From NCBI GenBank assembly GCA_944990035.1, contig CALYLX010000144.1:496001-560000 (forward strand): a DNA stretch of 64,000 nucleotides. The letters run 5' to 3'. Position numbers and translations under genes: made by a program. The stretch is from Clitopilus passeckerianus. Taxonomy: Eukaryota; Basidiomycota; Agaricomycetes; Agaricales; Entolomataceae. Under the pieces are notes generated by a model. It made no database searches, was not told the origin of the DNA, and worked only from the letters and a program-made list of their open reading frames with translations. Position 1 is the first letter of the stretch. Each line of letters opens with the position of its first letter. Shown piece by piece: positions 12,528 to 62,546 of this stretch.

Positions 12528-14514
12528 ATGGCATCCCGGCGCGCCACGGAGGAAACACCACTCTTGTCAGAGAACACTGGTGCTGAAGGTCATCGTCGTA
12601 ACCGGATATCGCGTCTTCAAATTGGACTCATCCTGTTGGTTTCACTGGCAGAGAATCTCAGTCCACAGGTTCTCTACCCATTTATGCCAGATGTGAGTTC
12701 CCTGTCCAGTCGGTGGTACACGGCTGATTGACTGAGGTTCTGTGCTAATAGTTGGTCGCAAACTTGGACATCACGCACGGGGATGCGAGCAAAGTCAGCT
12801 TCTACATGGGAGTAGAGGTGAAGATTCCTGATACCAAAACGGATACCTTTGTTGGCTAACGCCTTTGTCACTAGCGTGCTCTTTTCTTCACGACATTGTC
12901 GTTGACCACGCTTTCCTGGAACCGGGCCTCCGATCGATTGGGTCGAAAACCTATCCTTTTGGCTGGATCCGGTGGGGCGGCGCTCTCGCTCTACGCAACT
13001 GGCCTCACCCGGCGGTCGTACCGTTGGCTCATCGTCAGGTACGCAAAGCACGACTCTCAGTTTCCCCTGTTGCTAATGCAGCAATGTCATTAGTCGGTGC
13101 TTTGGTGGTTTTTTCAGTACGTTTACGGACTCGCTATTGTCTCATTGTGGAAACCTGATATAATGAACTGCTTAGATGGGAATGTCGGCATACTAAAGAG
13201 GTTCGCGCATGCTTTACGGAAGCAAACTCATGAGCTGACATTTGTCACAGTATAATGGCAGAGATGGCTGCTGATTCTAACCAACTCGCTGAGGTAACTA
13301 CTCTTTTCTCGTGTCCATATCATACCTTACCGTGACATTCTCGTAGCTCTTTTCCTACTTGCCGCTAGCGTGGGCAGGGACTGGCCTGGTAAGCTTTTCC
13401 GGAGTTTGACCTTTCATGAACTGAATGACCTTTCCGGCATAGTTCGGGCCCTTGATAGGTGGTTCCCTTGCACGGCCTGCTGAACAGTTCCCCGGGCTGT
13501 TTGGATCCAATAATTTCCTCAAAGTGTACCCCTACTTCCTCCCCTGTGCTGTCAACGCATCCTTCCTCGTCTTCGCCTGCGTTATGTGCTATGTCTTCCT
13601 GAAGGAGACACTCAAGAATCCAGAATCGTTTAGGCAGTGGCTAGGCCTTTCATCAAGCAAGAATTCAGCCCAAACTTCTCAGACCTCTCCCGAGAATGTA
13701 GCTGAGAGCGCTGGCACGCCAATAGATTCCATTCCGGAGTCTGAGCGACCATATCCAATTCTTGACCTGCTCCGAACGCGACGTGTACTGCTTGTAGCAG
13801 TAAACTACATGTGTTTAAGCATCTCCCAAGCCTCCCTAAACACCTTCCAGCCGCTCCAACTATCTCTTCCCGTCGACCAAGGTGGCATGGACTTTCCTCC
13901 CCCGCTAGTCGGCAAGATCCTTTCCATCTTCGGTCTCCTCAATGGCGCCCTACAGTTTTTCTTCTTTGCAAAGATCCACGCTTATTTGGGCCCGAAATGG
14001 TTTTTTACTATTGGGACTGCGTGCGGGATCCCCATGATCATGTCATTCCCGTTGACGAACTACCTTGCGAGGAGTAGCGGGAATATAGGGCTGGGGGTAT
14101 GGGGTCTGATTGCAGTTCAAACACTTGCCAAGGTCGGGATCAATATGTCTTCTGGTAAGATTTCTTAACGTTGAATGTGAACCCGTCGCTCATCTGGAGG
14201 AACAAGGTGCTTTGTTCATTGTCGTCGCAGCCGCCGCGCCAAACAAGGCATCCCTCGGTGCGACGATGGGAATCTGTCAGGTCAGTTCAGAGTTTGCCGA
14301 CCGGGGATTTTCGCTGATTGACGCGAAATTGCAGACGATTGGAAGTCTCATGAGAGCTTATGGGCCTGCAATGACGAACACCATCTTTGCCATTTCTCTT
14401 GAGAAGAATATATTGGCTGGGAATTTGGTTTATATTTTCCTTTTCATCACCACTTCGATCACACTGGTCACGGCATCTTTCCTTCCTCGACAGTTATGGA
14501 CTAAAGACAAGTGA
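12528..14514 (+). CDS. MFS transporter (ZIFL/YCR023C-like), gene 1 of 3
   Basis: Major facilitator superfamily transporter of the fungal DHA1-like group related to plant ZIFL and yeast YCR023C. The N-terminus MASRRATEETPLL is the acidic-dileucine-like start typical of the group. It is followed by QIGLILLVSLAENLSPQVL (TM1) and PFMPD. MFS motif A reads RASDRLGRKP. The RCFGG and NGNVGILK motifs, SYLPLAWAGTGL, FGPLIGG, a long Ser/Thr-rich central loop and six C-terminal helices follow. About ten short introns splice in frame throughout, ending at LWTKDK with TGA at 14512-14514. The substrate cannot be read from the sequence; small organic molecules or metal chelates are possible. It is probably a plasma or vacuolar membrane protein. 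It is the head gene of a three-gene tandem array. Confidence 0.85.
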
Positions 14515-15053: not shown

Positions 15054-17043
15054 ATGACATCCCAGCGCGCCAATGAAGAAACACCACTTTTACCTGGGAG
15101 GGCTGCTCCCGAAGCACATATTCCGAGCAAACTGTCCCGATTCCAAATCGGAACCATTCTGCTCGTTCAACTGGCAGAGCACATCACCCCCCTCCCTCCG
15201 TTTATGCCAGATGTGGGGTCTCCTACCAAGTCGGAATACACAATGTACTGAGATTACATCCGTCACCATTGTAGTTATTTGCGAACTTGGATATCACCCA
15301 TGGAGACGCAAGTAAAGTCAGCTTTTATATGGGCGTAGAGGTGAAGATCTCTCATGGACGTGAATGTTTGTCGGCTAATGTCATGTTGCGTTCAGCGCGC
15401 TCTTTACTTTACGACGCTGGGATTGACTACGCTTTTCTGGAACCAGGCCTCAGATCGATTAGGGCGAAAGCCTATCCTTCTACTTGGCCTCTGTGGAGGG
15501 GCTCTTTTTATGTATGCAACTGGCCTCACTCGGACGTTTTCGTGGCTTATCGTCAGGTATGCATATGCACAGCTCTTGGTCGTCCTAGTCGGCTGCTGAT
15601 ACTTTGATCTCGATAGTCGGTGTCTTGGTGGAGCTTTCAGTACGTCCGCGGGAATTCTTTGCCTTTTTCTGCTCAACTCAGTTGGGTTGACCCGATAGAT
15701 GGAAATGCTGGCATACTCAAGAGGTTCGTACACTAACCATGGACGGAAACTCATGGGTTGACGCTTGGTGCAGCATTATGGGAGAAATGGCTGCTGACTC
15801 TGACCAATTGGCTGAGGTGGCTTGTCTTCTCTTATCAAATCAAACCTTGGCTCAACTGTCTTGCAGCTCTTCTCTTACATGCCACTAGCATGGGCAGCAA
15901 CGGGCATGGTAGGCACCCCCATAGTCGTTCATCTACCTTTCGGAAACTAACTGATGTCTCTGGCTATAGTTCGGCCCATTGATCGGTGGATCACTCGCAC
16001 GGCCTGCTGAACAATTTCCTGGCCTTTTCGGGTCAAATAATTTCCTCAAAGCATACCCCTACTTCCTCCCTTGCGCCGTCACGGCATCCTTCATCGTCTG
16101 CGTTAGCTTCTTCAGCGCTATTTACCTGAGAGAAACCCTCAAGAACCCGGAACCATTTAGACAGTGGCTCGGCCTTTCGGTCAGCAAGGAAAATACCCGA
16201 GCTTCACCTACTACGGATGAGGAGACAGTCCAGAGGGCTGAAACACCACACAAGCCCGTTCCTGTGGCCGAACGACCATATCCGATTTTAAAACTTCTGC
16301 GAACGCGACTTGTGCTGCTAGTAGCAGTAAACTACACCTGTTTATCCATTTCCCAAGCTTCCCTGAACCTCTTCCAGCCGCTTCAGCTCTCTGTGCCCGT
16401 CGACCAAGGTGGGATGGGCTTCGCACCTCCATTGGTTGGCAAGATCTTATCGGTCTTCGGCCTTCTCAATGGCGTCCTCCGAGTCAACTACTCTTCTTTG
16501 CGAAGATTCACGCCTACACGGGTCCAAAGTGGTTTTTCATAATTGGAACTGCGTGCGGGATACCAATGATCATATCGTTCCCTTTGACGAACTATCGTGC
16601 GAGGAGCGGGAACATTGGGCCAGAGGTATGGGGTCTGATTGCGGTTCAGACACTAGCCAAGGTCGGGATCAATATGTCTTATGGTGAGGCTCCTTACCTT
16701 TCGACGAGAAACTTCCACTGATCTGGAGGAACTAGGTGCTTTGTTCATCGTCATCGCTGCCGCTGCGCCAAACAAAGCGTCGCTCGGTGCGACGAATGGA
16801 ATTTGTCAGGTCAGTCCAGAATTCGTTGGCTCAAAATTCCGACTCACATATCTGGTATTGCAGACGATCGGTTCCTTCATGAGAGCATTTGGGCCTGCGA
16901 TGACGAACACCATATTTGCCATTTCTCTTGAGAGGAATATTTTGGCTGGGAATTTGGTTTATATTTTCCTTTTCCCCACCACTTCGATCACGTTGGTCAC
17001 GGCGTCTTTCCTTCCTCAAAAGTTATGGAGTAAAGACCTGTAA
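15054..17043 (+). pseudogene. MFS transporter gene 2 of 3, broken by a 5-bp insertion
   Basis: Close paralogue of gene 1 with the same exon layout: MTSQRANEETPLL start, ASDRLGRKP motif A, RCLGGAFN-type motif, NGNAGILK, SYMPLAWAATGM, FGPLIGG. Splice joins are in frame until the exon beginning near 15969. There the sequence CTCC-GAGTC-AACTACTC (inserted bases 16481-16485) replaces the CTCCAACTACTC expected by comparison with genes 1 and 3. The frame therefore changes in the loop after NGVL, and a stop follows about 60 nt later (TCA TAA at 16538-16542). The downstream exons remain well preserved in the shifted frame to the end (LWSKDL, TAA 17041-17043), so the lesion is recent or an assembly artefact. 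If real, the product lacks its last four or so helices and is non-functional. Confidence 0.7.
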
Positions 17044-17334: not shown

Positions 17335-19312
17335 ATGTCGACCCATCGCGACGATGAAGAGGCCCCTCTACTTTCCGATGGTCCATCTCACTCTGGTGCC
17401 GAATTGGCGCTTTCTTGGTTCCAAATAGCAGTCGTCCTTCTCTTGCAGCTAGCCGATCATATCGTTGGCCAGGTTCTGAACCCTTTCATTCCGGCAGTAC
17501 GTATGAAATAGGCTTATCCTACAATCCGTACCCTAACATTTGATTCTAGCTTGTTGGAAGCCTCGAAATTACGCACGGAGAAGAGAGTAAAGTCAGCGTT
17601 TATGTCGGAATTCTGGTAGGTCCATCGTTCCTTGGTTGCCTCCGCAGTTCCTAAATATTTGGCCCAGCAATCCTTATATTTCGTCTCCACGACATTGACG
17701 ACGTTATTCTGGAGCCGAGCCTCGGATAGGCTGGGTAGAAAACCTATCCTGCTATGCGGAATGTTCGCATCTGTGATATCAATGCTTGGAATTGGCCTCA
17801 CTAGAGGTTATTGGTGGCTCGTTGTCAGGTGCGAAATATGGCGTTTACTGCTAGATTGTCTCGGTACTGATGATATATCTGACAGTCGGTGTATTAACGG
17901 TGCATTTAGTACGTGCCGCCCCTTTCTATGTCCCTCATAGGACTGTACTCAGTCTCACCTAGACGGGAACGTTGGTGTAATCAAAAGGTGAGGTCACTGC
18001 GGGTCGGACTAGGGAACTCGATTTCATTTCTGAGGATACACAGCCTGATGGGAGAAGTAACGACGAATTCAGACAAACTAGCGCAGGTACGTCGTCCGCC
18101 TTGCATCACCGAAGGAGGATCCGTGAACATTCTCTCTAGCTTTACTCTCTCCTGCCCATTGCGTGGGCGACTACCGGCACAGTTCGTCTTTCTTCGCAGT
18201 TACTACAACTACTCGTCCTAAAGCCATCTTCCAGGTTGGCCCTCTGATTGGAGGTTATCTCTCCTCTCCAGTTGAGCGGTTTCCCGAAACATTTGGCTCC
18301 TCGATATTTCTCGCGGAATATCCTTACTTCTTGCCATGTGCAGTAACAGCCGCGTACATAATGTTCGCCTGGCTGGTTACTCTGGTGTTTCTGCGCGAGA
18401 CACTCAAGTATAGGGTGTCTTTCTCCACCTGGCTTGGGCTTGGTCGTGTTTTTGGAAGGCCACAAATCCACTCTGGCTCCCACACCGAACCACCTCTGGG
18501 TGCACAAGCGTCGCATTCTACTGTCTCTGAATCGGAAAGGCCACTTCCAATGATTGAGCTACTCCGTAACTCACGGGTTCTTCTGGCAGCCCTAAACTAT
18601 GCCTGCCTCTGCCTCACCCAGTCATCACTGAACAACTTCCAACCCGTCCAATTCGCTACCTCGATCGAAAACGGAGGCATGGGATTCGATCCACCATTAA
18701 TCGGCAAAATCCTTTCCACGTACGGTTTCATGAACGGCGTCCTTCAGCTTCTTCTGTTTGCCCGAATACATAAGTATCTTGGGTCGAAGAGGTTCTTCGT
18801 ATGCGGTGTATCATGCGCGATCCCGATGATCGTGTCCTTCCCCCTGGCGAACTATCTCATCAGGACATATGGTCATGGACTTGGCGTTTGGATCGTTATA
18901 TACGTGCAGGTTCTCGCTAAGATAGGGGTGAGCATGTCATACGGTGAGTTATTCGTCCAAATTTCCGTCGTCTTGGGACAAACTGACTATTTCTTTCTAA
19001 TAGGCGCGCTGTTCATTCTGATTGTCGCTGCTGCACCCAATCATGCTTCGCTTGGCGCTACAAACGGTCTTTGTTTAGTGAGCCCTTGTTGTATTGACAA
19101 TCATGCAGTCATCGTACTTACACCATCTTCAGACCACAGGGAGTTTGATGCGAGCTGTTGGGCCCACAATGACGAACACCCTTTTCTCCCTATCAATGAA
19201 AACTGGAATATTGGGAGGAAACCTGGTATATGTGTTTCTTCTGGTCCTAGTCGCTGTCTGTCTTACGACAGCGTCTGCATTGCCGGAAGAACTCTGGAAG
19301 AAAAAGGAATGA
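17335..19312 (+). CDS. MFS transporter (ZIFL/YCR023C-like), gene 3 of 3
   Basis: The start ATG at 17335 encodes MSTHRDDEEAPLL, then a helix ending in ADHIVGQVLNPFIPA. Motif A (RASDRLGRKP), RCINGAFN, NGNVGVIK, LLPIAWATTGTVGPLIGG and the C-terminal helices are all present. Every join I made by eye keeps frame. The last exon begins after ATCTTCAG at about 19131 (TTGSLMRAVG) and ends LPEELWKKKE, stop at 19310-19312. It is more diverged from genes 1 and 2 than those are from each other, so it is probably the older copy. It also lacks the shared leader, which fits a later duplication of genes 1 and 2 only. Substrate unknown. Confidence 0.83.
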
Positions 19313-19601
19313 AATGCGTAGCTCGTCGGCGGCCTTGACAAGGTTTCACGCTTCCATACCATAACGTAGATCTATTTAAGCTTTTCAGTGGGACCACCTA
19401 ATGTTCGAGTCACGTAGCTGAAGCACATAGCTTTCTCAGCAAAAGCCTCAAAAGGCTTCTTGGGCGCCGGGGACAGCCCCCGGCCCAGTGTATGTGTCTT
19501 GACCGCAGTCGGGGTCATGTATTGCGGCCAAAGTGATCGTCTATGTAGTCATATATATATAAGCGGACTGACTGGCACTCTTCCGGAATAAGACGTCTAC
19601 T

Positions 19602-51989: not shown

Positions 51990-52775
51990 CTAGTACCTGT
52001 ACGATACAATGCCATTCCCGGTAGACGAGTTTCGTGTTGTAAACCCCAACGCAGCCCACGGCGCGGCCATCTGCGGATGATGCATAACATACTGGTGAAC
52101 GCGTTCCTGGGATTCTTCGTGGAGCCACTCAGGTGCATAATAATCCTGGAATGGTCTTCGTGCTAAACGATGAAGTGTAAGGTGGAGGAATTCAGCAATA
52201 TCTATCTCATCAACATGTATTTTCGCCCGGTACCAAGATCTCAAGTCGTTCTTGTGATCTACCCAGCCTCGCAGCTTGAGCAGCAGCAGGATCACCTGGG
52301 GCATAACGGGAAGATCAACATTGTTTGGTAGCCGTACGATGAATTCTTCTGGAAGCAATGGGATACTGAGAAACCCGGGTTGCAGGATATCCACCTTGCA
52401 GGCACGGTATCGGTTCGGTAAGGGTGGCCATTGGAACGTGTACCAAAGGACATTCCAACCCGCACCTGGCGTCACCGAGGGAACAAGGAAGAAGTTCTGA
52501 TCAAAAGTAGTGAGGAGGTGCTTGACTTGTTCTGCGCCATACGAGGGATCCATGATTGCTACATCAACATCCTTCGAGGAGTAGGTGTAAGTATCATGCA
52601 TTCAAGTTGATTGTAAAAGGCGTACGTTGGGTTGGCGATTCCGCATGCCCCAGACATACCATGCAACACTCCCGAATAAGCAGGCCTTAATCTCGGAATG
52701 GCTGAGAATACTGATAGTGTGGCTTGCCACATAGCGAACCTCAGCGAGGGTGACACCGTGGCGATTCAGCATCAT
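51990..52775 (-). CDS. nucleotidyltransferase-fold protein 1
   Basis: Starts MMLNRHGVTLAEVRYVASHT. The NTase signature is CLFGSVAWYVWGMRNRQPN, then after a 52-nt GT-AG intron (GTACGCC to CGAAG) DVDVAIMD. This is the hG-S ... D-h-D-h pattern of minimal nucleotidyltransferases. The rest (FLVPSVTPGAG, CKVDILQPGFLSIPLLPEE, VILLLLKLRGWVDHK) is shared with the paralogue at 56746-57476. About 240 residues. These proteins are frequent in Agaricomycetes and are often annotated as hypothetical; the donor nucleotide and target are unknown. It lies in the middle of the BTB tandem. Confidence 0.7.
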
Positions 52776-55487: not shown

Positions 55488-56357
55488 CTAGCCTGGGGGT
55501 TTGGCCCCGAATGAGAAACTACTAAACAGAGGTCGTGCAGTAGTATCCACCTCGGGGAATATCTTTCCAATGAATTTATCAATGTAATCGGGCCTTGGGG
55601 GCGGGTTCGGGGCAAACGAGAAGATGGATGCTGGTTTGGGTGGCTCGGGTGGCTCGGCTGCTTTTACTTCGTCCGTCTTCTCCTTGTAGCCAGAAACGTA
55701 TCCTTGGAAGAGCGACACTCTCATGCTAAGCGAAAACCCCAGCCGTGTACTTTCGCCTTCTGTGAGAGCTGTATGGCTGGCGAGGCGCCGCAATGCAGTA
55801 TACCACCAGCGATCAACCTTATAGTCATGGGCCAATGTCAGTAACGTAGGTCCATCAATGTGGATCCTTTCAAGCTCCCGTATTGCGGTCGCGCGGACTC
55901 TGTCGAATTCCCACATCGTGGCTAGCTTCAACACTGAACTCCACTGGGGGACTCCAAGAGTTTCACGCTCGTAGTTCCTGTTACACGGCCCAAGAGACGA
56001 CATAAGTTTGCGTTTGTGAAGCATTCTGAAATCGTTCATGACTTGCCTCGGATAGAGTACACGCAGGAGTTGGCGAAAATCATCGGCCTTGATTCCTTCA
56101 AGCTGGATAGGTTTTTCCTTCTTCACGCCGTCTGAGACGGAATCTTCTCCCGCGGGCAGCCGGAACATATCTTGGAACACTGAAGATTCCTGCTCGAAGT
56201 GGTGCTTAGGCACCCTGAACATTGTTCGTTCAACCTAGGTGACGACGTCAGATGGTGATCCAGAAACTGATGTTTGCAAACGTACCAGAAAATGGACATC
56301 CTCAAAGTAATACTCGCCATCCTGCTTGCAGGATAACAAGTCAAGTGGTTGCGCCAT
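55488..56357 (-). CDS. BTB/POZ-domain protein, paralogue D
   Basis: MAQPLDLLSCKQDGEYYFED, an intron, then VERTMFRVPKHHFEQESSVF, DMFRLPAG, GIKADDFRQLLRVLYPR. The next intron (55978-56046, donor GCAAGT) joins to NYERETLGVPQWSSVLKLAT, RATAIRELERIHIDGPTLLT and HDYKVDRWWYTALRRLAS. The C-terminus carries a Pro/Ala-rich stretch, IDKFIGKIFPEVDT and FSFGAKPPG. Without the intron the frame also stays open, so automatic models may wrongly read through it. Intact. Confidence 0.75.
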
Positions 56358-56745: not shown

Positions 56746-57476
56746 TCAGTAGGAGTCAGAATCGAAGTCCTCAGCATCTATATCGGATACATCGAACCCT
56801 AGTTCAGCCCATTTCCCGGCAGAGTCAGGAATCGTATCGATAAACCTCTCGATTCGTTCCATACTCTCGTCAACAAACCACTCGGGTAGGTTCTGATCAC
56901 TTAAATGCGCATCATAGTGGTGTATAGCCAAGTCCAACATCTCATCCAGGTCCGCCTCATCCACCCAGGTCTTCTCTTGCATCCTACGCCGATGATCGTC
57001 CATGTGGTCTGTCCAGCCTCTTAGCTTCAGTAAGAGGAGAGTAATCAGGGGCACGACAGGAAGGTCTTCATTGCCCTCGATGCGAACAAGTTCTTCAGGC
57101 CACAGATAAGGGATGCTGAGAAGGCCGGGCACGAGGATGTCGACTTTACAGGTCCAATCATCCTCTGCGTGCCGGAACCAAAGAACGCGGTAGTCAGCGT
57201 TAGGGTTTCTCGAGGGAACAAGGTAGAATTCAGAGCTTGAGGACACAAGGAGTTCCTTGATTGATTCTGGTTCCCATTCCTCGTCCATCACAACGAGGTC
57301 GACATCCTAGAAACACGTTCACTCAATCTGCTGACGCCGAGTAGAAGGAACCTTACATTTGGTTCCCGACGCTGCATCCCATACACGCTGCATGCAGCAC
57401 TGCCAAATAGGCATACATCCAGGCCGTTCGCTTCCAGAATCTCAATCGCCACCCTCGCTGCTTCAAGGACACTCAT
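56746..57476 (-). CDS. nucleotidyltransferase-fold protein 2
   Basis: MSVLEAARVAIEILEANGLD, CLFGSAACSVYGMQRREPN, then after an intron (57307-57355) DVDLVVMDEEWEPESIKELL. The G-S...D-x-D signature of the NTase fold is complete. The body (FYLVPSRNPNADYRVLWFR, CKVDILVPGLLSIPYL, LITLLLLKLRGWTDHMDDHR) parallels NTase 1. The acidic C-terminus ends FDVSDIDAEDFDSDSY. About 227 residues. Intact; likely the functional copy. Substrate unknown. Confidence 0.72.
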
Positions 57477-57884
57477 ACCGGTCGAGGCGGAGGAGACGTG
57501 GTGATAGAAGTCAACAATGGTAACCCGTTGGGCGCCTACTGAACATCAGGATTGTGGCGCTGGCGCGCTCAGGCTTCTGAGCCACAGATTCTAGTAGATG
57601 ATCTATCTATGGAGTCCATCTGTTGTCAATGAGTTACAAGGCATCGAGAGTCTTTGGACCCACTGCCGTCGAAATCAACTTGGATGACCAATAGAAATGG
57701 AACCGCGAGTAGCGAGGGTTTGGCGAAGAACGTTAATATTTGATAACTATTAGAATTACAAACATGGTGTCGATTAAGTGAAATTCAGTCCAGGCCGTGC
57801 TCATGCCGACTTGTTCTGCTCGAGGAATCCTGAACCACAGATTTGAGCAATCACCTCCGGCGAGCTGATTATGAATGGATGCCA
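57477..57884. other. intergenic with a short GST 3'-end relic
   Basis: Bases about 57780-57830 resemble the 3' end of the glutathione transferase gene at 61645-61695 (both with CTCATGCCG, CTTGTTCTGCT and GAGGAA at matching spacing). This points to an old duplicated GST end next to the UstYa gene. Nothing else recognised. Confidence 0.4.
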
Positions 57885-58970
57885 CTAATAGATAACAGCA
57901 GGTGGAGGTAGGTCATCTTCAACATAGGTTTTGATGTCAATGTATTTGTCGATATGCCTCTCGCCTGCCCAAGCTCGAACCTTCTCAAAATTCTTACACA
58001 TATGGGGGTACTCGAGGCGAGGTCTAACCACGAGGTCCTTAGGGTCCCATTGCCAGAAAACAATAGATGGGTCTGAGTGGCACCTAACGCAACAAAATAA
58101 ACGATGAATATTTGATATAGGGATGGGACGGGAGGAAGGAAGGCGCTCACATTACGTATTGCCTAATGGAATCGATACAATGGGAGATGTGCTCGGGGGC
58201 AAACTCCTCTTCGGGGTCATCGAGGAGTTGGTCGTAACGATCTCGACGGAGAGCTTGCCTGACTTTATTCTGGAAGGTCTATCAATATCTCATCCGGTGG
58301 ACAGTTGGTACACTAGCTTACCACGCAGTGAAGTTGATGGAATACGTCGAGTTGAGCGATGTAGTACCCAGGGAACTCCTTGATTGGCCATGTTCTGTTA
58401 GGCAAGAGAGCAGCTTCACTTCTGGGAATCTTCATCATCGTAACTAGGTCGAGGTTTTTGCTATAAAGAGGAGTAAAACGAGCTGAGTACATAAACTCAC
58501 GATTGTACAAGTCCTGCCACGCTTGATCAGACTCGTCAGAGTATTCTTGGTATATTGTCTTCTTGTAAAATCCGTCGTCAAAAACTTTGATTTGGTCCTC
58601 CAGAATCTCGTTTGCCGGAGCTATAAAGGTACTTAATCAATAATTGGAAGAATTGGCGAAGGATTGTCCTACAATAAAGTTGGAGCCGTGTGCTACTCCC
58701 AGTGGCTCGGCAAGTCGCAACTAGTTGGTCGTAGGCAGAACTTGAGCTCCGGAAAGCCAGAAGAAGTAAGATGAGCCCAATCGCCTGCACGGCGATAATA
58801 GCAAGAAAGATAATATCTTTCTTGATGCCGAAGTGTCTTTTCTTGAGTGAATGAGTCTCGTAGCCGTTGAAGCCATGTTGTTCGCAATGGCATTCTCTGT
58901 GAGGCTCTCCAGTAGGTGACTCGAGGTCAACAGCCATCAGAGGCAGATATCCTTCAGACTTGTCGCTCAT
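57885..58970 (-). CDS. UstYa-family (DUF3328) oxidase
   Basis: Starts MSDKSEGYLPLMAVDLES (58970). A membrane helix (DIIFLAIIAVQAIGLILLLL) is followed by a luminal part: YSPANEILEDQIKVF after an intron, Q.YSDESDQAWQDLYNREF, LLPNRTWPIKEFPGYYIAQL, DVFHQLHC (first H-x-x-H-C motif), VNKVRQALRRDRY, HISHCIDSIRQYV (second H-C motif), MCHSDPSIVFWQWDP, and a C-terminal YVEDDLPPPAVIY. This order is that of UstYa proteins, which in ustiloxin and asperipin biosynthesis carry out oxidative cyclisation of ribosomally made peptides (established for that family). It is a type-II-like membrane protein facing the secretory lumen, where a secreted precursor would pass. It is divergent from the repeat precursor at 60123-60970 with 1.15 kb between starts. 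Confidence 0.85.
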
Positions 58971-60122
58971 AGTCGTGGGGCGAGACAAAGACCGCAAAGT
59001 GTGGTGAACAATCCCTATTACAAGGAGGGTTCGTTGTGAGCAAGACGTCGGAGTCATCAAGCCAGTGGCGATTCGGATCATCCTAGTTCGGCTGTTCTTC
59101 AACGACAGCGAAAATTGTACATGGACCAGATGCGAAGAGAAGACGTAGCATTCAAACCTTCCCCAATCTGAGGGAAACATGATGGAAAGGAGGCTACGTA
59201 AACTAACGATGATCTGAAGGGACTGGGACCAGGAAAGGAAAGGGTATTTGATCCGGCACCCAACAAGTTGGACCGGCGTTTGTCTTCTCCGACGCGCCTC
59301 ACCATGACCACCTCCTTCAACTGACTCGAGTTTGAGAGATCAAAAGTGCCCTAATGTGCGCGAACTATTGTAGCAGGGATCTTGATTTTGCCTGAACTCT
59401 CACTAAAACCTCTAGTACGATTTCTGGGGCAAAAACGCTGTGCATAATCACGCATGGAACGCCAGCAACGATGCTTATTCTACATGAACACCAGCATACT
59501 CGCTAAAGCTGATTACATGGGTACTAGGTCAAACGAAGTGTAGTGGTGGCGGCGGCTTATTGAGAAAGATGCACAAGGCGCTCCCGCTAGTCTCTTAAAA
59601 TATCTCAGCTATTTCCGAAGAACTGAAACGTCGCACCTTGGACAGCAGGATTGGATTTCTGATGTCTCAATCTTCGGATAGGTTTTCCAGGTTTCCTTCT
59701 GCGCAGGGAGCTATACGTATGGCTGGATTGAACATATCTGCCTCCGGATCATCCATGGTCAAGCACAGGTGGTAAGAATCGAATGTCTGAGTTGTGCTTT
59801 CCTTCCGCTAGGTATGCCGAGAATGACTCCCATTAATTTCGAGTCGGAGGGCTCCACATCAGGCGATTCTACTGTTTCTATTCGGCCTGGAGCGCACGCC
59901 GCTGTACTACTGACAAACGGAATGGTAGTCTTGCAAATCCTCTGAACCGACCACGTGCGAAGTGGTCCGAGGCCATTGCGATTGTAGATGAGCTAGCAAG
60001 TCCTAACTTGACTTACAAAGTCCCCGGACCAGTATAAATACAGGTGCCAGTTTTCTACAGACGACACCGCAGTAAAGTGGTATTTCGAGAACAAGCCTCT
60101 CTCTCATCAGAACCCTACGACA
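58971..60122. promoter_or_regulatory. shared divergent region of UstYa and repeat precursor
   Basis: The 1.15-kb region separates two divergent starts. A clear TATA box TATAAATA lies at 60033-60040, 83 bp before the precursor ATG, and suggests strong inducible expression. I found no additional gene: open frames on either strand within it have no domain. Confidence 0.55.
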
Positions 60123-60970
60123 ATGAAATTCTCCATCGCTCTTATTCAACTCGCCCTTGTTGCCTTCGGTGCCCAAGCAGCGCCGGTCGACGCGGGGACC
60201 TTTGGTACTGGTTAGTCTTCGTTCATTACGGCAGGTGTCAGTTATTGACACGCAGTTCACTGTCTAGAACGTCGTGGGAGGCTGCCAGCGCCGATTCAGA
60301 TGCCACTTTCCATCGTTCATCCAACGGCGGATGGTACTACGGCAAGCGCGATGAGGCTGCCGTTGCCGACTCTGATGCTACCTTCCATCGCTCCTCCAAC
60401 GGCGGATGGTACTATGGCAAGCGTGAGGAGGCTACCGGCGCTGACTCCGATGCTACTTTCCATCGCTCGTCTAATGGTGGATGGTACTACGGTAAACGTG
60501 ATGAGGCTGCCGTTGCCGACTCGGACGCTACTTTCCATCGCTCTTCTAATGGCGGGTGGTACTATGGCAAGCGTGGCGAAGCTGCCGTTGCCGACTCAGA
60601 CGCCACCTTCCATCGCTCCTCTAACGGTGGATGGTATTACGGCAAGCGCGACGAGGCTGCTGTTGCCGACTCCGATGCTACTTTCCATCGTTCATCCAAC
60701 GGTGGATGGTACTATGGCAAACGTGAGGAGGCTACCAGCGCCGACTCCGATGCTACTTTCCACCGGTCGTCTAACGGTGGATGGTACTACGGCAAGCGTG
60801 ATGAGACTGCTGTTGCCGACTCTGACGCCACCTTCCATCGCTCCTCCAATGGCGGGTGGTACTACGGCAAACGTGAGGAGGCTGCTACTGCCGACTCTGA
60901 TGCCACTTTCCATCGCTCCTCTAATGGCGGATGGTACTACGGCAAGCGTGAGGAGGCTTCCAACGCCTAA
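60123..60970 (+). CDS. secreted Kex2-processed repeat precursor (candidate RiPP/KEP)
   Basis: Exon 1 (60123-60210) encodes a signal peptide, MKFSIALIQLALVAFGAQA, with cleavage likely before APVDAG. An intron of 57 nt (60211-60267) follows. Exon 2 starts with Arg-Arg codons and then nine tandem 25-residue units, each DATFHRSSNGGWYYG followed by KR and an acidic/Ala spacer (such as DEAAVADS). The protein ends SNA, TAA at 60968-60970. Lys-Arg after every unit is the classical Kex2 site; the Glu/Asp-Ala spacers resemble those trimmed by dipeptidyl peptidases in alpha-factor-type precursors. The core is invariant in all nine units while third codon positions vary widely, so selection acts on the peptide. 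The splice join is one base short of frame around 60274-60280 (right after the Arg-Arg pair), so the model as given is broken at that point. A Trp-Tyr-Tyr motif before each KR and a UstYa neighbour point to a dikaritin-like RiPP. Product and activity unknown. Confidence 0.8.
60299..60967 (+). repeat. nine tandem 75-bp coding repeats
   Basis: Period of exactly 75 bp (25 codons) beginning GAT-GC-x-AC-x-TTCCA; units differ mostly at third positions (TCC/TCT/TCG, GGC/GGT, AAC/AAT, CGC/CGT). The last unit ends at the stop. Slippage or unequal crossing-over can change the copy number, so strain variation is expected. Confidence 0.9.
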
Positions 60971-61666
60971 GACAACGTGTTCTTTTCCCCGCCTGATACA
61001 TACATGCATAGGCTTCCCGGAATGATCAGAGCCATTCTTCTGTTAGCTATTTGTCCTTCCCCATTCAACCTTACCGAACTAAATTCCCTTTCCGTTTCGG
61101 ATTTCTTTCTTTTCTTTACGCCGTTTACGAGCCTGCTTGATCGATTGTTGTACTACTATTCAAACGAATACATTGACGAATACTGTTTTCCATCTATCAA
61201 CCTGCGTGACATGAGGCTCTTGGAGTGGATTACCTCACGGTGAAGTAAACAAGAGATAGATTTAATTAACTGGATTCAGTCCTTCAACAGTTTCCGGACG
61301 ACTGCGCTGCCCCTCGCGCCTGTTCAACAGCACTGTTACTCGGCGACATGCCTGCGAGGTCCTCACACAACACATTTTCAAGTCTACATTTTGGAACAGT
61401 CTATCTCCTGCGTGGACCTTGCTTCGCCTTAGTAGGAAAGAGCGGAGGAGAAATGGATGGTGGGGACAGCCGGGAAGGTGTAGAAACGACGACGAACTTG
61501 AAGAACCGTTTATTTGCCTCGAGTGCTTTGACGATTAGATCTTTGATGTCCCCAACGGTTGACCATGATCGGAGGAAAAAGTAAACAAACTGTCGTGTTT
61601 CAAAAGTTATAAATACAAGCATGTTCAGAACTGTCGATATAACGAAATTTCAGCCATGCCTATTAC
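60971..61666. other. 3' region of precursor and downstream gap
   Basis: Nothing supported except the probable 3' UTR of the precursor gene and the 3' end of the GST gene; the small frames at 60977-61243 and 61348-61584 have no domain. Confidence 0.4.
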
Positions 61667-62546
61667 TCATGCCGTCTTGTTCTGCTGGAGGAAGCTGGCA
61701 ATACACTCTTCAGTCCTGGGCCTCACGATATCCTGAACGGGAGGTTTGAGTAAGGACATTAATCAAAGAATATCAGCGCGGCGGTACTAACATCTTTCCA
61801 GGTCTTCTTGACACTCTCACGAGAGGTAACGTCGTCGAAGTACTTGCGGTAACGAGCAAACTTAGGATCGGTCTCAATCGTCTTGAGAGTCTCCAACGAG
61901 GCGGGGATAAACTTCCCGAGGACCTCAAGGCCGAGTTTGAGGCGAAGCAAGAACGGTGCAGCCGCGATGTCAGCCAAAGTGAACTGCTTTCCGATGGCGT
62001 ATCCTTCAGCCGGGAGGAGAGCTTGAATTTTTTCCACGCCAGTCAGAACGCCGTCGAGATTCTGCTTAAGGAGAGCGCCAATATAGGCAGGGACGAGGAC
62101 ATCGGATACCTGCGACACGAAGAAGCGAGCCTCGGCGCGTTCTATAGGATCGGTGGGGAGAAGAGCGCCATTTGACAAGTCGTTGACAAGGTCGACGACG
62201 ACGAGGGATTCAGCTATTTTCTTGGTGTCGGGAGACGGGTCGGCGGGATCAGCTTGGGGACCGATCGCGATTGCTGGTACCTGTATGGCAAGTTGACATT
62301 AGTGTTCGGTCACGCAAGACCTTTGCGGGGGTACCTTGCTAGCCGGGTTGACCTTAGGGGCATACCACTCTGGTTTGTTTTGGAGGTCAATCTCGTAGCG
62401 AGTGAATTCGAGACCAGTCTCTGCGAGAGCAATTTCGGCCTGATTTCGACGTTATTCAAGCACGGTGCCGGACAAAGTGTCTTAGAACGTACCCTATGAG
62501 CGAAGGGGCATCCAATGTTGGTGTAGAGGGTGAGTTGCTGGACCAT
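61667..62546 (-). CDS. glutathione S-transferase
   Basis: Exons joined in frame: MVQQLTLYTNIGCPFAHR (thioredoxin-fold start with Cys-Pro active-site-like CPFAHR), AEIALAETGLEFTRYEIDLQ, PEWYAPKVNPASK, VPAIAIG (cis-Pro), ESLVVVDLVNDL (GSH-binding Glu-Ser), then the all-helical domain (ADIAAAPFLLRLKL). The last exon joins at GAT|GATATC (intron 61733-61790) and ends FLQQNKTA, TGA at 61667-61669. The CPxxxR start suggests the omega/GTT2-like group with deglutathionylation activity rather than conjugation. It probably acts in detoxification or stress. Whether it belongs with the neighbouring peptide genes is not decided by the sequence. Confidence 0.82.

Follow-up and report, generated by a model that had tools for sequence, protein, structure and literature searches.

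A divergent Kex2-repeat precursor and UstYa gene in a basidiomycete as one copy of a duplicated, probably dikaritin-like cassette

Within a 64,000-nucleotide stretch of a basidiomycete genome of 64.8 Mb and 160 contigs (the window; C141:496001-560000), a gene for a nine-repeat, predicted-secreted precursor stands head to head with a UstYa (DUF3328) gene, and we propose that the two belong to a duplicated cassette of two genes making a dikaritin-like peptide, with the UstYa protein likely cross-linking a Trp to a Phe of the peptide core; we give this reading as a whole a probability of roughly 0.6. Its parts differ in strength, such that (i) the locus very probably belongs to a basidiomycete family of dikaritin-like RiPPs, (ii) the focal UstYa is in our view highly likely to act on the product of the focal precursor, and (iii) a Trp-Phe cross-link as the reaction itself is put at somewhat below even odds. 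The original prediction, made from the letters of the window, described the pair; the present analysis adds that it belongs to a multiplied group of such pairs.

The precursor gene lies on the plus strand and contains a single intron. Exon 1 (60123..60210) opens at ATG 60123 with MKFSIALIQLALVAFGAQAAPVDAGTFGT and encodes a predicted signal peptide (MKFSIALIQLALVAFGAQA) followed by the start of the leader; the intron (60211..60267) is placed by the acceptor tgtctag, which is the in-frame acceptor of two further copies on contigs C93 and C142. Nine 25-residue units then follow (60276..60970), each composed of a spacer, the core ATFHRSSNGGWYYG and KR, before a short tail and the stop (60970). All nine end in WYYG-KR, forming tandem repeats with dibasic Kex2 sites between them. 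Their spacers follow the pattern [GDE]E[AT]x[AVTSG..]ADSD, and it is after this acidic spacer that the part fixed between units begins. Signal peptide features judged by eye (K2, a hydrophobic run, AQA-AP) are present in the precursors of all five loci compared (5/5). A Pfam match of the repeat to LINC-PINT was discarded as a repeat artefact.

On the minus strand, with 1.15 kb between it and the precursor, the UstYa gene (57885..58970) comprises five exons (58970-58673, 58620-58501, 58443-58322, 58269-58151 and 58083-57885) separated by introns of 52, 57, 52 and 67 nt, with GT..AG at 4/4 in three genomic copies. Its 285-aa product has one predicted transmembrane stretch and matches UstYa (PF11807) at 150.9 bits (E 6.2e-44; Pfam; cut-off 25). 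The predicted divergence of a nine-repeat signal-peptide precursor from a UstYa gene is thus borne out. The HxxHC(x)nHxxHC motif of DUF3328 copper enzymes is present as well: HQLHC, at 175, is as originally read, whereas the accompanying "HC motif" is in fact a second full HxxHC, HISHC at 207. The HxxHC residues are invariant across an 11-row alignment with relatives, save for the first Cys, which is missing in one row. Between UstYa alleles at the focal locus, dN/dS is 0.155. A database search found 19 relatives among 704 candidates, with the best named full-query one, from Cyathus, being 44% identical; of the 12 named among the 19 matches, 11 come from Cyathus, Crucibulum, Coprinopsis, Flammula, Mycena, Flagelloscypha and Sistotremastrum, which we take to be genera of Agaricomycetes, and one, the weakest, from Xylaria. 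Searches of solved structures and of NCBIfam each gave 0 matches, and the structure predicted for one relative, P0001, was of low confidence (mean pLDDT of 66.2).

The focal pair is also present on C93, at 99.6% identity over 9.5 kb, and on C142, at 91%, from which we infer that the C141 haplotype was assembled twice, once as C93, and that C142 represents the other haplotype. Compared with C93 and C142, the window copy has one base fewer in the G run directly following the tgtctag acceptor; the signal exon there is out of frame with the units at this acceptor and in frame only via a later AG, whereas the C93 and C142 copies read ERRGEA[AT]SADSD in frame from the signal exon into the units. Taken at face value, this would make the window copy a decaying cassette, with the one-base difference real and only the relatives active. 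The acceptor at which the window copy falls out of frame is kept in the two other genomic copies, and a sister cassette on C74 also looks broken (its UstYa model, L044 2344-3418, is without an ATG and holds a stop, owing to decay of the cassette or to a sequence error). Decay of the window copy is nevertheless very improbable, given that the near-identical C93 is without the C141 difference and carries a different one, a one-base C-run difference in its UstYa gene, that run lengths are the sole difference between C141 and C93 across the 2.1 kb aligned, and that the other haplotype reads through. Since C141 and C93 differ only by run length and C93 has a C-run difference of its own, errors of sequencing or assembly are the probable source of the one-base differences in both the C141 precursor and the C93 UstYa gene.

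The whole genome was searched first with the precursor and next with paralog units, and precursor relatives turned up only on C141, C93, C142, C74, C26 and C123. The paralog-unit search gave 35 matches (E<=10), grouped into 11 gene copies, and every match (35/35; 11/11 precursor copies) lies within 3 kb of a UstYa match. Within this genome, paralogous loci repeat the adjacency of precursor and UstYa that the original prediction would have looked for in relatives. Head-to-head pairs occur at four loci (focal, 88k, 94k and C74), amounting to eight copies when C93 and C141 of the focal locus are counted apart, with 1.13-1.38 kb between start codons (the C74 UstYa start being approximate). The 88k precursor, with the core IVFLPQSIGGWAPG, differs in unit number between haplotypes (eight and five; L042 550-1194; L045 555-974), with Val or Ile in the core. 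Other arrangements are found too: a single-unit precursor copy lies behind the 96k UstYa gene (C93:97.7k), and the C26/C123 precursor, with [VF]LQRGxYWP units, follows its UstYa gene in tandem instead of facing it (L041 15-332; L059 526-843). Scans of UstYa flanks added two more: next to C142:187k, a divergent precursor built of IFFYNWG units, and next to C142:816k, a weak candidate that has PLWNGEW units but no KR and that contains a stop.

Among UstYa loci of the wider group, flanks were read at 11 (C142 44k, 67k, 90k, 96k, 185k, 187k, 201k, 761k and 816k; C74; C26), and seven of these have a precursor or candidate alongside. Repeat scans of the flanks fetched for C142 67k, 185k, 201k and 761k gave no precursor; such scans seek similar fragments ending in dibasic sites and are blind to single-unit or KR-free precursors, and the 185k UstYa gene lies ~2 kb from the precursor at C142:188k. 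Of the other related UstYa loci, C94:75k was read in part, and C93 59k, 173k, 174k and 188k, C94 147k, C79 and C141:576k lay outside the scans. For the more distant UstYa groups, the scans covered ~1.5 kb around the match on C66, C67, C69, C139, C59, C114 and C8, leaving aside C4 and C116. Those on C66, C67, C69 and C139 (L012-L029) form tight groups, e.g., five matches in ~6 kb on C66, with no repeat precursor within ~1.5 kb. In the UstYa tree, the focal gene groups with 89k/90k, 96k and C74 (support 100/99), with the other rows from its own genome falling outside. Searches for precursor relatives elsewhere returned none at E<=10, either from a single sequence (253 candidates) or from an alignment of five precursors (7997 scored candidates); these null results could reflect absence or, equally, missing gene calls or composition filters.

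The intergenic region between the two start codons (58971..60122) has block homology to the corresponding regions of the paralogous pairs, such that those of all four head-to-head loci are homologous in blocks. A TATA element, TATAAATA, lies on the plus strand at 60033..60040, 90 bp before the precursor ATG, and is found 90-95 bp upstream of the precursor ATG in 6/6 intergenic regions compared. The homologous blocks and the constant placement of TATAAATA together point to joint duplication of enzyme, intergenic region and precursor. At the level of sequence, the cassettes have demonstrably been duplicated whole, with their cores rewritten around a nearly constant enzyme domain.

The surroundings of the pair display features of their own. 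A direct repeat of ~60 bases (81% identical) flanks the two genes at 57768-57827 and 61632-61693, its second copy sitting just downstream of the adjacent GST gene; the repeat may have been left by the duplication or insertion event through which the pair reached this site. The GST gene itself (~61.7-62.5k) was considered as a cassette part and rejected, its 7 genome matches being the three copies of the focal locus and four unrelated contigs. Further away in the window, tandem open frames at 13443-14168, 15970-16542 and 18127-19338 have FGPLIGG and FQPLQ-like stretches in common and are transporter-like by eye, with no Pfam match at E 0.001 for 13443-14168. Similar minus-strand open frames at 51990-52601 and 56746-57306, among BTB-like frames (48.9-56.2 kb; the BTB match was tested by Pfam for 55488-56222 only), look like a local tandem duplication.

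Between loci, the precursor is conserved unevenly: pairwise comparison of five precursor loci (ten pairs) gives mean identities of 72% for the signal peptide, 60% for the spacer and 30% for the core. For the UstYa proteins of the focal and 89k loci, 171/190 residues are identical in the luminal part (96-285) and 57/95 in the N-terminal part. Among the 13 distinct cores (five loci, both haplotypes), Trp is present in 13/13, Phe at position 3 in 12/13 (the exception being ATALLYTNWST), Tyr in 6/13 and Cys in 0/13; as the five loci are related, these counts are not independent, and residues in common may partly reflect descent. Haplotypes also differ in the core at the 94k locus, e.g., ATFLYNWGA versus ATFLHNWGL (dN/dS 0.37, 67 codons).

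Within the focal array the picture is one of constancy. In the C93 copy, 14/16 core and KR codons vary among the nine units, all 14 of them synonymously only, in agreement with the invariant core and free synonymous change noted originally; over all unit pairs there are 234 synonymous and 0 non-synonymous differences (for ~11 synonymous and 37 non-synonymous sites), and the spacer has amino acid changes at 4/9 codons. In the C142 array, 14 core and KR codons vary, 11 of them synonymously only, and the three amino-acid changes all fall in the last unit, GTFHASSNGGWYYN. Selection is thereby shown, at the codon level, to act on the focal core.

Which reaction the enzyme would carry out depends on how these cores are read. 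Chemistry had been foreseen at the Trp-Tyr-Tyr-Gly next to KR; Trp holds up as a candidate site in every core, whereas Tyr does not as a common one, its occurrence in fewer than half of the cores, set against the constant Trp and nearly constant Phe3, making a Tyr link unlikely as the reaction common to the family. A Tyr link within WYYG special to the focal locus would fit the use of Tyr in the ustiloxin, phomopsin and asperipin links (PMC7329392; PMC9233826; the papers cited here and below are represented by excerpts), and both Tyr codons are retained in all nine focal units; it is nonetheless improbable, as sister cassettes whose UstYa luminal part is ~90% identical have Tyr-less cores, e.g., IVFLPQSVGGWAPG. 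Precedent for other donors exists in that victorin links Phe and Leu (PMC9233826) and one family member joins Tyr-O to Phe-C-beta (PMC12186524). With one Trp constant and one Phe almost so in cores that are otherwise free to change, our first choice is a Trp-Phe link. Trp is also common in linear agaric Kex2-repeat peptides (PMC9769878), and for this reason need not be a cross-link site.

Two further readings dispense with the cross-link altogether. UstYa family members cyclise, hydroxylate, halogenate or otherwise oxidise their substrates (PMC12435403), and the focal UstYa could accordingly modify the core by hydroxylation, halogenation or desaturation; we consider this unlikely, in that cyclisation is the reaction best known for members that accompany Kex2-repeat precursors (PMC7329392; PMC9233826). 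Alternatively, the precursor might yield linear peptides, perhaps signals, as a Kex2-repeat protein of the kind found in other agarics, with UstYa acting elsewhere or only lightly. Linear Trp-ending Kex2-repeat peptides have been detected in Coprinopsis, Lentinula and Pleurotus (PMC9769878), and the focal spacer is Ala-rich, as such a reading would have it. This too is quite unlikely: a UstYa gene lies beside each of the 11 precursor copies found, with a conserved common intergenic region, and the dipeptide directly after KR/RR is GE, DE or EE in 9/9 focal units (C93 copy), none of which has the X-Ala/X-Pro of alpha-pheromone-like Kex2-repeat proteins at that position.

For a duplicated cassette with a Trp-to-Phe cross-linking UstYa, we envisage the following route. 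Both genes would be driven from the common intergenic region, as its conservation between paralogs suggests, and the precursor, by virtue of its predicted signal peptide, would enter the secretory path, where kexin would cut after RR (ERR) and KR; the kexin-type P domain has 2 matches in the genome and the DPPIV_N domain 11. UstYa would be membrane-anchored in the same path, with its dicopper domain in the lumen at the two HxxHC motifs, by analogy with its family; in CctR, HxxHC motifs form a binuclear copper site and bind two coppers (PMC12435403). The enzyme would recognise the conserved acidic spacer and oxidise the Phe3...Trp core, after which the spacer would be trimmed and the peptide secreted. 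Cassette duplication and core rewriting would in turn generate a set of different peptides. In its fullest form, that of a birth-and-death family of promoter-sharing cassettes in which a near-constant copper enzyme, directed by the acidic spacer, closes a Trp-to-Phe macrocycle in cores that are free to be rewritten, the proposal is tentative, and on balance doubtful. If true, the family would amount to a genetically encoded library of cyclic peptides. Taken together, paralogs and alleles amount to a mutational scan, made by nature, of the substrate of a UstYa enzyme; they nominate Trp and Phe3 as the important residues and the acidic spacer as a candidate recognition element, and an enzyme accepting such different cores would be useful for cyclic peptide libraries.

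The dikaritin layout anticipated for the locus is present, with a predicted signal peptide, Kex2-type repeats and an adjacent UstYa bearing both HxxHC motifs. Likewise, in ustiloxin, phomopsin, asperipin-2a and victorin, a signal peptide, dibasic-cut repeats and a UstYa/DUF3328 gene beside the precursor are described in the available text (PMC7329392, PMC9233826); the focal family differs in being basidiomycete, in its two-gene cassettes and in having Trp and Phe, rather than Tyr, common to its cores. The focal core itself has two Tyr, Tyr being the usual, not universal, dikaritin cross-link donor. Tyrosinase, a feature of ustiloxin and phomopsin, has 12 genome matches, none on C141, C93, C142, C74, C26, C123 or C94, and S41 peptidase has no match in the genome; ustiloxin-type helper genes thus seem absent.

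Closer in taxonomy are the basidiomycete Kex2-repeat proteins with DUF3328 neighbours, which have the same architecture and are sometimes multiplied (PMC7329392). Such pairings occur mostly in Ascomycota (in Basidiomycota, 103 of 1680 Kex2-repeat proteins have them), and they include type S-5 of Sistotremastrum, with 12 precursors in 2 strains, 8 of them with DUF3328 (PMC7329392). Head-to-head promoter-sharing duplication and a Phe/Trp pattern are not mentioned in the excerpted descriptions of these types. The linear agaric peptides of Coprinopsis, Lentinula and Pleurotus resemble it in their signal peptide, dibasic sites and Trp-bearing cores, but have a terminal Trp and an STE13-type motif, where the focal core has an internal Trp and the precursor an adjacent UstYa gene (PMC9769878). 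In Pleurotus ostreatus, 16 UstYa-like genes are called probably dikaritin-related, with precursors and cores not named in the text available (PMC8893723). Venturia inaequalis offers a parallel in its nine dikaritin clusters, with several DUF3328/precursor pairs in one genome; it is an ascomycete, and duplication of one cassette is not described in the excerpts (PMC9632046). Among the literature matches listed, mainly open-access and represented in part, none describes precursor/UstYa cassettes that share a promoter and have had their cores rewritten, and none describes UstYa chemistry at Trp.

Umemura raised the possibilities that Kex2-repeat peptides of Basidiomycota are scarcely ever cyclised or that a different factor is responsible (PMC7329392). 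In the basidiomycete precursor family described here, all copies found adjoin a UstYa gene. Repeat precursors beside DUF3328 genes are known, and what appears new, within the literature searched and as far as its excerpts extend, are promoter-sharing cassettes with rewritten cores and their Trp/Phe pattern.
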